Source: Hoeflea sp. IMCC20628
GTDB lineage: Bacteria; Pseudomonadota; Alphaproteobacteria; Rhizobiales; Rhizobiaceae
Direction of reading: 5' to 3'
DNA length: 64,000 bases
Assembly: GCF_001011155.1 (NCBI RefSeq)
Contig: NZ_CP011479.1
Coordinates: 1,382,501-1,446,500 of the forward strand
Both the position numbers and the translations under genes were made by a program. This document shows positions 14,093 to 30,731 of the stretch, piece by piece. Under the pieces are notes generated by a model, which saw only the letters and a list, made by a program, of their open reading frames with translations, was not told the DNA's origin and did no database searches. Position 1 is the first letter of the stretch; each line of letters opens with the position of its first letter.

Positions 14093-14322
14093 TTCTGGTG
14101 GAGGCCTGCTTATTGCGGGTGCACTCTTTTCAGTGGCTTGGCCGGGAAAAGGCTGAAGAGCGGGAATTTGAGGCGATAGGCGAACTGGCACGCTTCCTGC
14201 ATTGTTAAGATCAGATCCAGAGGGGATCATAAAAGACGCTCGCAAAGAGCGCTTGAACAAGGGCCGTCAGGCAGGATCACGCAGACCCGAATGTCGGGGA
14301 TTGCGCCTGTCTGGCGGCTTTT

Positions 14323-26287: not shown

Positions 26288-27571
26288 ATGGTAGACCGGA
26301 CCGATACGAAATCGACGCAACAGACGGCGTCACGGCGCGGCTTTCTCAAGGCGGGTCTGCTTGGTGGAGCCGCGGTTGCGGCAAGCGCCGGCGTGGCGCG
26401 GGCAGCGGGCGATCCGCTGATCACTGAAATCCAGGACTGGAACCGCTATCTTGGCGAGGGCGTTGACGTCGCGCCCTATGGCAAGCCGTCGGAATTCGAG
26501 GCGAATGTCGTGCGCCGCAGCGTGCCGTGGCTGACGGCCGATCCGGTCTCGTCGATCAATTTCACACCGCTGCATGAGCTTGAAGGCATCATCACGCCGA
26601 ATGGGCTTTGCTTCGAACGCCACCATGGCGGCACGGCAACGATTGATCCGGCCGATCATCGCTTGATGATCAATGGTCTGGTCGACACGCCGCTGGTCTT
26701 CACCATGGAGGACCTGAAACGGTTCCCGCGCGAAAACCGGGTCTACTTCCTCGAATGCGCCGCCAATGGCGGCATGGAGTGGAAGGGCTCGCAGCTCAAT
26801 GGCTGCCAGTTCACCCACGGGATGATTCATTGCGTGGTCTATACCGGCGTGCCGCTGCGCTATCTGCTGGAAGAGGCGGGCGTCAAGACCAGCGGCAAAT
26901 GGCTGCTGGCCGAAGGCGCAGATGCCTCGGCGATGACCCGCTCGATCCCGATGGAGAAGGCGCTGGACGACTGTCTCGTCGCTTTCAAGATGAACGGCGA
27001 GTCCTTGCGCCCCGAGCAGGGTTATCCGCTGCGGCTGTGCGTTCCCGGCTGGGAAGGCAACATGTGGGTCAAATGGCTGCGCCGGCTGGAAGTTGGCGAT
27101 AAGCCATGGGCACAGCGCGAAGAGACGTCGAAATACACTGACCTTCTGGCCGACGGAAAGGCTCGCCGCCACACCTGGGTGATGGATGTCAAATCCGTCA
27201 TCACCAGCCCGAGCCCGCAAGCGCCGGTGACACATGGGAAGGGGCCACTGGTGATCTCCGGCCTGGCCTGGTCGGGCAGCGGCACGATCAAGCGTGTTGA
27301 TGTGACGATTGATGGCGGTCGCACCTGGCAAACGGCGCGGATCGACGGGCCGAGCCTGCCCAAGGCGCTGCACCGGTTCTATCTCGACATCAACTGGGAC
27401 GGGTCGGAGCTGCTGCTGCAGTCCCGTGCGATTGATGATCAGGGACTGGTTCAGCCGACCAAGAATGAACTGCGCGCTGCACGCGGCGGCAACTCGATCT
27501 ATCACAACAATGGCATCCAGACATGGCACGTCAACAACGACGGGGTGGTTGAAAATGTTGAAGTTTCCTAA
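26288..27571 (+). CDS. soxC: Sulfane dehydrogenase molybdenum subunit SoxC
   Basis: 427 residues with a Tat signal (SRRGFLKAGLLGG). The sulfite-oxidase fold supplies the molybdenum-ligand cysteine in VYFLECAANGG, and a C-terminal Mo-co dimerisation domain follows. SoxC with SoxD oxidises the SoxY-bound sulfane sulfur to sulfone level, so thiosulfate can be taken fully to sulfate without sulfur globules. Its end overlaps soxD by 17 bases. The molybdate importer modABC lies 3 kb downstream. Confidence 0.94.
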   Translation: MVDRTDTKSTQQTASRRGFLKAGLLGGAAVAASAGVARAAGDPLITEIQDWNRYLGEGVDVAPYGKPSEFEANVVRRSVPWLTADPVSSINFTPLHELEGIITPNGLCFERHHGGTATIDPADHRLMINGLVDTPLVFTMEDLKRFPRENRVYFLECAANGGMEWKGSQLNGCQFTHGMIHCVVYTGVPLRYLLEEAGVKTSGKWLLAEGADASAMTRSIPMEKALDDCLVAFKMNGESLRPEQGYPLRLCVPGWEGNMWVKWLRRLEVGDKPWAQREETSKYTDLLADGKARRHTWVMDVKSVITSPSPQAPVTHGKGPLVISGLAWSGSGTIKRVDVTIDGGRTWQTARIDGPSLPKALHRFYLDINWDGSELLLQSRAIDDQGLVQPTKNELRAARGGNSIYHNNGIQTWHVNNDGVVENVEVS

Positions 27572-28664
27572 GTCTGCGGCGCTGGCCGTTGTTGCAATGG
27601 CTGCCTTTGCCGCCCCGGCATTTGCCGATGGCGACATTGATGCTGGTGAAAAAGTGTTCAAGAAATGCAAGGCCTGCCACGCCGTCGGCGAGGGAGCCAA
27701 GCACCGGGTCGGCCCCGAGCTCAACGAGCTGTTCGGACGCGAGGCAGGGTCTGCGGAGGGCTACAAGTACTCCAAGGCCATGATCGAGGCAGGTGACGGT
27801 GGGCTGGTCTGGGATGCGACAACCCTGACCGAGTACCTGATCAAGCCCAAAGATATGATCAAAGGCACCAAGATGGCCTTTGCCGGGCTGAAGAAAGACG
27901 ATGATATTGCCAATGTGCTGGCCTATCTGAAGAGCTATTCGGCAGAACAGGCGGCAGCAGCCGAGGCTGTGGTCGAGGCCGAACCAGTCGAAACCGCGGA
28001 AGCGGCTCCTGCTGCCGAAGAACCGGCGACAGAGCCGGCAATGGCGGTCGAGGCAAGCCAGGGCGCCTTCGGGCTTGGCCGGGTGGCGATGCCCGACGAG
28101 ATTTCAGCCTGGGACATCGACATTCGCCCCGACGGCACAGGACTGCCTGAGGGCAAGGGCACCGTGGCGCAAGGCGAGCCAATCTATTCGGACAATTGCG
28201 CAGTCTGCCATGGTGATTTCGGCGAGGGTGCCGGTCGCTGGCCAGTGCTGGCTGGCGGTCAGGACTCGTTGCTCAGAGACCGGCCGGTCAAGACCATCGG
28301 CTCCTACTGGCCGTATTTGTCGACGGTGTTCGATTATGTCCGCCGCGCCATGCCGTTCGGCGACGCCCGCTCGCTGTCGGACGACGATGTCTATGCGCTG
28401 ACGGCCTATCTGATGTATCTCAACGATATCGTCGATGATGAAGAGTTCGAGCTTTCCAAGGCGAACTTCGCTTCGATCCGGTTGCCGAATGAAGATAATT
28501 TCATCCCAGATGACCGGTTGAGCGAGCCGCATTATGCCAAGGGTCTTGAGCCCTGCATGTCTGACTGCAAGCCGGGGCCGGTGGAAATCACCGCCCGTGC
28601 CCAGATCATCGACGTGACGCCGGAAGGCGAGGGTGACGAGAATTCCGGAGGCGGGATCGATTGA
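27555..28664 (+). CDS. soxD: Sulfane dehydrogenase diheme cytochrome SoxD
   Basis: The start is MLKFPKSAALAVV, inside the end of soxC. The 369-residue protein has a signal peptide (ending ..AFA-DGD), a first cytochrome c domain with CKACH at 38-42, an Ala/Glu-rich linker of about 45 residues near 140-185, and a second heme domain with CAVCHG at about residue 215. The linker is low-complexity and probably flexible. It accepts electrons from SoxC and passes them to small cytochromes. Confidence 0.93.
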   Translation: MLKFPKSAALAVVAMAAFAAPAFADGDIDAGEKVFKKCKACHAVGEGAKHRVGPELNELFGREAGSAEGYKYSKAMIEAGDGGLVWDATTLTEYLIKPKDMIKGTKMAFAGLKKDDDIANVLAYLKSYSAEQAAAAEAVVEAEPVETAEAAPAAEEPATEPAMAVEASQGAFGLGRVAMPDEISAWDIDIRPDGTGLPEGKGTVAQGEPIYSDNCAVCHGDFGEGAGRWPVLAGGQDSLLRDRPVKTIGSYWPYLSTVFDYVRRAMPFGDARSLSDDDVYALTAYLMYLNDIVDDEEFELSKANFASIRLPNEDNFIPDDRLSEPHYAKGLEPCMSDCKPGPVEITARAQIIDVTPEGEGDENSGGGID

Positions 28665-28701
28665 CAGATGGGTGCTCGAAAGCGCCCTTGAGGAGCCAGG
28701 A

Positions 28702-29429
28702 ATGATTGAACATGGCAGGCACCAGACGCGCAGCAGAATGTTGCGCGCTCTGGTGCCTGCCATTTTTTTGGATGTTTGGCCACATCTGCCGGTGCGACCG
28801 AGCCGGACGCATCGTTCAAACCCTGTGCTGCTTGTCACGAGATTGGCGCGGGTGCGAAACACAAGGTCGGCCCACATCTCGACAGATTGTTCGGCCGCAC
28901 AGCCGGCAGCCTGGATGATTTCCGCTATTCCGACGGCATGCGCGCGGCAGGCGAGGCGGGGCTGGTGTGGACCGCCGAAACACTGAGCGCCTATCTCGAG
29001 AAACCGCGTGATTTCATCAAGGGCAACCGCATGTCGTTTCGCGGCATGGCTGACGCGGCTGACCGCGCAGCACTTATCTCCTGGCTTGAAGCTGCGACAC
29101 AGACAGCTCCGGCGCAGGACCCAGTGGCTGGCGCCGCCTCGGCTGATGGCCAGGTTCACGGCTTTGCCGACATCGTGCTGCAAATGGAAGGCGACCCGGA
29201 CTATGGCGAATATCTCGCCGGTGAATGCGTTACCTGCCATCAGGCCAGCGGCCACGCTGACGGCATTCCGTCAATTGTCGGATTGCCCAGGGACTATTTC
29301 GTCCTCTCGCTGTTTGAATACGTCACCAATGTGCGCTCCAATGACGTGATGAAGCTGCGCGTCGCCAATCTTGGCAATGAGGAGATCGCCGCGCTGGCCG
29401 CCTATTTCAGTTCGCTGGAACCGCAATAA
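28702..29429 (+). CDS. soxE: Diheme cytochrome SoxE, apparent frameshift in signal peptide
   Basis: The mature protein (from about 28776) has two cytochrome c domains, CAACH and CVTCH, as in SoxE, the electron acceptor of the flavoprotein SoxF. In its own frame there is no ATG, only a TTG at 28776 without a ribosome-binding site, and no signal peptide. One frame over, an ATG at 28702 has GAGGAG six bases upstream and reads through RSRMLRALVPAIF to a run of seven Ts (28763-28769). With eight Ts the frame continues as FGCLATSAGATEPD, a textbook export signal joined to the cytochrome. So the gene looks complete except for one base: real mutation, slippage site, or sequencing error. Downstream codons are intact. 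Confidence 0.8.
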
Positions 29430-29456: not shown

Positions 29457-30731
29457 ATGGCAGGCCTGACAAGACGCCAATTCGGACTTTTCACCGGCGC
29501 CGGTGCTGCGGCGCTGACGCTTCCAACCTATCTGCGTGCACAAGGCAAACCGCGGGTCGTTGTCATCGGCGGTGGCGCAGGCGGGGCCACTGCGGCGCGC
29601 TACATCGCAAAGGATTCCGATGGCGCGATTGATGTGACGCTGATCGAGAATTCGGAGGTTTACACCACCTGCTTCTATTCCAATCTTTACGTTGGCGGGT
29701 TCCGCAGTTTTGAATCGATCACTCATAGCTACGACGGGCTGCAAACGAATTACGGCATCACCAAAGTGACCGGAATGGCAACCGGCGTCGACCGTGAGGC
29801 CAAAACGGTAATGATGGCAGACGGGGCCTCGGTTCCCTATGACCGGCTGGTGGTGGCCCCGGGCATCGATCTGATCTGGGATTCGGTCGAAGGCTATTCG
29901 GAGGAACTGTCTGAAATTGCTCCGCATGCCTGGAAGGCCGGGGCCCAGACCAAGCTCTTGAAAGCCGGTCTAGACGGCATCGAAAACGGCCAGCAGATCC
30001 TGATGGTGGCACCGCCCAATCCCTATCGCTGTCCGCCGGGGCCTTATGAACGCGCGTCGATGATGGCGCATGTGCTCAAGGCCAAGGGGCTGACGGACTC
30101 CAAGGTGATCATTCTCGATCCGAAACCGAAATTCTCGAAGCAGGGGGTGTTCCAGGAAGGCTGGGAGAAGCATTATCCGGGCATGATCGAATGGTACGGG
30201 CCCGACGTGCATGGCGGCATCGCCAGCGTCGATGTTGGCAATGGCACCGTTGAAACCGATCTCGACACCTTCAAGGGCGCGTTCATGAACATCATTCCGG
30301 CGCAAAAGGGCGGCGCGATTGCCGCTGCTGCGGGGCTGACCGACGACAGCGGCTTCTGCCCGATCGAGGCTGACAGCATGCGCTCGACAATGGACGAGTC
30401 CGTGCTTGTCATTGGCGACGCCTGCATTGCCGGTGACATGCCGAAATCCGGTTTTTCCGCCAATAGCCAGGCCAAGGTGGCGGCGATGACCATTCGCGGC
30501 GATCTGCTTGACGCAAAAGTGTTTCCGGCCAGATACGCCAACACCTGCTGGTCCCTGATCGAGACCGATGACAGTGTGAAGGTCGGCGCGCAATATGCCC
30601 CCGGCGACGGCAAGATTGCCTCGACACAAGGCTTTATCAGCCAGATGGACGAAACGGATGCGGTGCGCAAAGCCAATTACGAGGAGTCCGCCGGCTGGTA
30701 TGCCGGGATTACCGCCGACATGTTTGGCTAG
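29457..30731 (+). CDS. soxF: Flavocytochrome c sulfide dehydrogenase flavoprotein SoxF
   Basis: The 424-residue protein has a Tat signal (LTRRQFGLFTGAG) and an FAD-binding Rossmann motif VVVIGGGAGGATAARYI near residue 36. Two cysteines placed as the redox-active disulfide of FccB-type proteins occur in TTCFYSN and SGFCPIEAD. With SoxE it forms a periplasmic sulfide dehydrogenase. The gene order soxE-soxF is canonical, which supports the SoxE assignment despite the frameshift. A hairpin follows the stop. Confidence 0.92.
   Translation: MAGLTRRQFGLFTGAGAAALTLPTYLRAQGKPRVVVIGGGAGGATAARYIAKDSDGAIDVTLIENSEVYTTCFYSNLYVGGFRSFESITHSYDGLQTNYGITKVTGMATGVDREAKTVMMADGASVPYDRLVVAPGIDLIWDSVEGYSEELSEIAPHAWKAGAQTKLLKAGLDGIENGQQILMVAPPNPYRCPPGPYERASMMAHVLKAKGLTDSKVIILDPKPKFSKQGVFQEGWEKHYPGMIEWYGPDVHGGIASVDVGNGTVETDLDTFKGAFMNIIPAQKGGAIAAAAGLTDDSGFCPIEADSMRSTMDESVLVIGDACIAGDMPKSGFSANSQAKVAAMTIRGDLLDAKVFPARYANTCWSLIETDDSVKVGAQYAPGDGKIASTQGFISQMDETDAVRKANYEESAGWYAGITADMFG

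Follow-up and report, generated by a model that had tools for sequence, protein, structure and literature searches.

The reading frame of soxE has probably been broken by the one-off loss of a single base at or just after a run of seven Ts (T-run), a run that belongs to something older, namely the U-tract of a conserved RNA hairpin. Such a loss would be either an error of the consensus or a mutation that very recently struck a gene until then functional and under purifying selection. As a frame break it is ordinary and matters little beyond annotation, in which soxE is to be marked as frame-disrupted; more lasting weight attaches to the conserved hairpin.

The soxE locus and its reading frames

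The window, i.e. the whole stretch of 64,000 nucleotides that was analysed, corresponds to C1:1382501-1446500 of a 5.12-Mb genome in three contigs. Curated models identified soxX, Y, Z, A, B and C, while soxD was recognized by its two cytochrome c domains and its position. Between soxXYZABCD and a soxF-like flavoprotein gene lies soxE (Table 1), whose product has its nearest named relatives in Hoeflea; the organism is accordingly treated as a marine bacterium of the Hoeflea type. The closest known clusters are the soxXYZABCDEF clusters of the Paracoccus type. The present cluster has in common with them the gene order, a diheme cytochrome gene followed by a flavoprotein gene, and differs from them in that its soxE is one base out of frame.

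Table 1. Features of the soxD-soxE-soxF region in window coordinates.
Feature	Position	Strand	Details
soxD-like diheme cytochrome gene, upstream of soxE	27564..28664	+	stop TGA 28662-28664; Cytochrom_C, two stretches
Small stem-loop in the soxD-soxE gap, just 5' of the ribosome-binding site	28670..28687	+	GGGTGCT cgaa AGCGCCC; fold of 15 species
Ribosome-binding site GAGGAG	28690..28695	+	six-base spacer to ATG 28702; sequence
soxE ATG with its frame: n-region and beginning of the h-region of the signal, thereafter out of frame up to a stop	28702..28986	+	sequence
Terminator-shaped RNA hairpin within signal-sequence codons	28712..28763	+	core arms 28714-28723 (GGCAGGCACC) and 28752-28761 (GGTGCCTGCC)
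Seven Ts, U-tract of the hairpin	28763..28769	+	sequence
T_TTT_TTG, possible -1 ribosomal slippery heptamer in the ATG frame	28764..28770	+	sequence
Interval one base short relative to every same-genus relative	28763..28775	+	alignment with relatives
soxE cytochrome frame, two CXXCH, without own signal peptide	28776..29429	+	frame open from 28710
soxF-like flavocytochrome c sulfide dehydrogenase flavoprotein gene, intact	29457..30731	+	FCSD_central, FCSD-flav_bind

The frame opened by ATG 28702 reads MIEHGRHQTRSRMLRALVPAIFLDVW... until the stop codon at 28984-28986. A TGA precedes the cytochrome frame, which is open from 28710, matches cytochrome c domains of Pfam and contains the heme-binding motif CXXCH twice (CAACH and CVTCH). 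No ATG, GTG or TTG was found in this frame between 28710 and 28775; TTG 28776 is the sole such start before the first CXXCH, and initiation there yields a SoxE without signal peptide. The preliminary description of this DNA was therefore right in that soxE is split by one base, that an ATG with a good ribosome-binding site opens an export signal, and that the cytochrome frame has neither an ATG nor a signal peptide. No second full-length soxE was found elsewhere in the genome; next in rank come SoxD and other cytochromes c.

For comparison, 17 genomes of the same genus were searched, of which 14 contain a close soxE; the second match to SoxE in genomes of the genus is SoxD. The homologous ATG and the cytochrome share one frame in all 14, as opposed to an offset of 2 mod 3 in the window. 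The ATG of these relatives opens an apparent signal peptide, as judged by eye, so that Sec signal peptide and cytochrome are joined in frame in the 14 relatives but not in the window. A VPA stretch after the charged region is common to the window and seven of the 14 relatives (e.g. MLDHGRHHRRIKMLGLLVPAIFVGAASPFGAVAAAEAE), and most relatives carry GAGGAG or an AGGAG-like sequence at the homologous ribosome-binding site. The view that ATG 28702 is the ancestral start, at which the exported SoxE of the relatives begins, is supported by these comparisons. Relatives with seven Ts, or with a different working start, were looked for in the same set and not found.

The distance from the ATG to the alignment anchor is 74 nt in the window and 75 nt in the sister species (G010). 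Against the sister, the gap is best placed, by a small margin, at 28771-28773, just past the T-run; against two other relatives (G007 and G011) it falls within the run. A loss inside the T-run is only one option, given that the placement of the gap varies in this way, and a one-base change at any of several sites from the run to about 28775 would join both frames. It had been proposed that one extra T in the run restores the gene; the missing base is upheld, its position within the run is left as one choice among several.

A conserved hairpin at the T-run

Positions 28709-28766 match their own reverse complement, with 28712-28763 forming a near-perfect inverted repeat that ends in the T-run. 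The predicted hairpin has a 24-pair stem with one bulge and a three-base loop (-46.5 kcal/mol, z -8.4), directly followed on its 3' side by the seven Ts; a longer fragment folds at -56.3 kcal/mol (z -7.2). A stable GC-rich hairpin with an immediately adjoining U-rich tract has the form of a Rho-independent terminator. The preliminary description had not noticed this role of the T-run as a U-tract. On either strand of the surrounding 400 kb no combination of hairpin and T-tract is more stable. The second strongest is located in an intergenic region at about position 14319 of the window (plus strand, -39.6 kcal/mol) and looks like an ordinary strong terminator. A scan of 28500-29000 against Rfam gave only sub-threshold matches to microRNAs, which were taken as chance.

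Six genomes contain the pattern GGCAGGCACC-N-GGTGCCTGCC, each in a single copy that is located at soxE and has a length of 48 bases. The loop side of the stem varies between species. Of the 15 species folded, ten have the hairpin at a z value below -3.6, and the ten-base tail contains 5 to 7 Ts in these ten and 2 to 4 Ts in the five others. In two species (G006 and G012) AGACACC pairs with GGTGTCT, both sides having changed. Covariation is modest overall, with three pairs showing two-sided changes that stem from few independent events in related species. Shuffled alignments reached the observed number of cells with two-sided changes in 2 of 500 cases and the observed covariation score in 1 of 500, while the number of pairs with two-sided changes was not unusual (231 of 500).

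Codon identity in the arms was compared with that outside them. At positions with a shared amino acid, the seven arm codons are identical in 92.5% of comparisons (209/226) as opposed to 59% (4409/7467) elsewhere, a value equalled by one of 20,000 random codon sets. Among the conserved arm codons are some that are rare in the window genome, such as AGG (6% usage) and CCT (10%). Since the single copies sit at soxE, the T-rich tail tracks the stem, changes are two-sided and rare synonymous codons are kept, we take the conservation of the arms as probable selection on the RNA, in a set of related species with small covariation counts. A mobile repeat as source of the hairpin was rejected, there being one copy per genome. 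That the inverted repeat acts as DNA instead, as an operator or a mobile palindrome, would fit the identity of the arms in six species; we consider it unlikely in view of the single copy per genome, of two species with changes on both sides of the stem, and of a T-tract that is present or absent together with the stem.

Origin of the frame break

Mature SoxE of the window and of the sister species differ by a dN of 0.043 and a dS of 0.519 (dN/dS 0.08). Measured against 13 outgroups, the window sequence is on average slightly closer than that of the sister (mean dN difference -0.012). Mature SoxE is under strong purifying selection, and the window branch shows no acceleration; any loss of function must therefore be very recent. 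Neither relaxed selection nor further lesions were detected when the gene was examined as a pseudogene, a result that is still compatible with a very young one. Given such strong selection, the break has to be either very young, an error of the consensus, or tolerated. Tolerance is suggested by three same-genus genomes (G005, G008 and G017) in which a soxE match is missing, two of which (G008 and G017) keep a soxD-like match.

The general frequency of frame breaks was estimated with a third-position test on 800 kb from each of the window and sister genomes. This test was preferred to plain frameshift counts, in which antisense frames and reading frames extended upstream raise the number. Among the 529 genes compared, three candidates were obtained in the window genome and 24 in the sister (C1:2884001-3684000). 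One of the three is unequivocal, and here again a conserved gene has lost one base next to a T-run; of the remaining two, one falls in front of a start codon and the other is ambiguous. The test did not flag soxE itself, whose signal stretch is presumably too short for it. Residual consensus errors and young mutations would both account for a rate of a few per thousand genes. The scarcity of breaks relative to the sister indicates that the window consensus is fairly good, and the deposited consensus of the sister is probably poor with respect to single-base indels. At about position 1875770 of contig C1 of the window genome, a conserved gene, 688 aa long in the sister, has been interrupted through the loss of one base next to a T-run, the site reading CCCTGTTTCCC in the sister and CCCTTTTCCC in the window genome; both halves of this gene are about 92% identical to the sister.

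Two origins of the lost base come into consideration above all. The missing base may well be a consensus (assembly) error in a genome that is in fact in frame, a prospect that we rate at somewhat below even. Sequencing is difficult at a 24-pair stem that adjoins a homopolymer, soxE is otherwise perfect and constrained with its only defect at precisely this site, and at least one other conserved gene of the same genome has lost a single base beside a T-run; against this speak the one to three candidates in 529 genes as compared to 24 in the sister. The same low error rate elsewhere in the genome favours a real and very recent loss-of-function mutation, by which soxE would have become a young pseudogene and soxF would be left without a cytochrome. 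For this we see a fair-sized chance of roughly one in three cases, helped by the apparent lack of soxE in three same-genus genomes, two of them with soxD, and lowered by an intact soxF, unrelaxed selection and the lack of a second disabling change. Should the base loss be real, the cell would export little SoxE or none, and slippage of RNA polymerase or a -1 ribosomal shift at the T-run would rescue at most a few percent; some low-level rescue is then physically likely.

Rescue as the normal mode of expression appears improbable. In the proposed case of RNA polymerase slippage, the hairpin would aid the enzyme in restoring the frame at the T-run, as known from IS630 of Roseiflexus. A strong nascent-RNA hairpin does directly adjoin the seven Ts, SoxE is still under selection, and the E. 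coli enzyme, for which slippage requires at least seven Ts, makes insertions at such a tract (PMC6260861). Their yield is low, amounting to 0.75% of mRNA reads and, in a GFP assay, to a rescue of about 5% of the in-frame control (PMC6260861). Roseiflexus IS630 resembles soxE in having a hairpin directly 5' of a T-run and two frames to be joined, yet slippage there yields transcripts that lack one base of a T5C5 run (PMC5009743), which is the wrong direction for soxE, as its seven Ts, absent from the relatives, would have to gain one base or lose two. Slippage at A or T runs in Buchnera and Blochmannia and in dnaX of Thermus likewise involves a homopolymer at the break of a gene still under selection, but the runs cited for efficient slippage comprise nine bases, those of soxE seven (PMC5009743). 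Neither the seven Ts nor the shifted frame occurs in any of the 14 relatives. Programmed slippage is thus unsupported, and slippage, one of the readings offered in the preliminary description, was not sustained as a conserved device.

Even less is to be expected of -1 ribosomal frameshifting at T_TTT_TTG (28764-28770). The heptamer is in register and a -1 shift would enter the cytochrome frame, but the hairpin lies upstream and not downstream of it, the related U_UUU_UUA and U_UUU_UUU shift far less readily in E. coli than A_AAA_AAG does (PMC5009743), and the combination of heptamer and shifted frame is found in none of the 14 relatives. The same slight expectation attaches to an additional function of the hairpin, by which polymerases escaping termination would realign on the seven Ts, gain a U (or lose two) and restore SoxE; termination and the choice of frame would then be coupled at one site. 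A one-off base loss next to an older hairpin is the reading retained here.

A possible attenuator between soxABCD and soxEF

From a point about 47 nt past the stop codon of soxD the hairpin extends to nucleotide 62 of soxE. Full efficiency is reached in E. coli by terminators located over 27 nt from a stop codon; within a coding region, terminators are efficient in the first 100 bp and repressed by ribosomes further on (PMC4824070). The terminators of this tR2 study are similar to the soxE hairpin in their GC-rich stem and subsequent U-tract, their distance of more than 27 nt from the upstream stop codon and their position near a gene start; the soxE hairpin differs in being natural and conserved within signal-peptide codons (PMC4824070). 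We read it as a putative attenuator, conserved at the junction of soxABCD and soxEF. Acting as a partial intrinsic terminator, it would lower transcription of soxEF relative to soxABCD, and a ribosome starting at soxE may block its folding and so relieve termination.

The hairpin could explain, in a way open to experiment, a separate expression of soxEF and soxABCD in a single operon, and its arms clearly exemplify how RNA structure constrains codons. An increase of soxC and soxD in Ruegeria pomeroyi is not accompanied by one of soxE and soxF (PMC9769926), a contrast that is to be regarded as a possible lead only. A stem comparable to the small one in the soxD-soxE gap (28670-28687) is present in about ten of the 15 species, including some without the larger hairpin.
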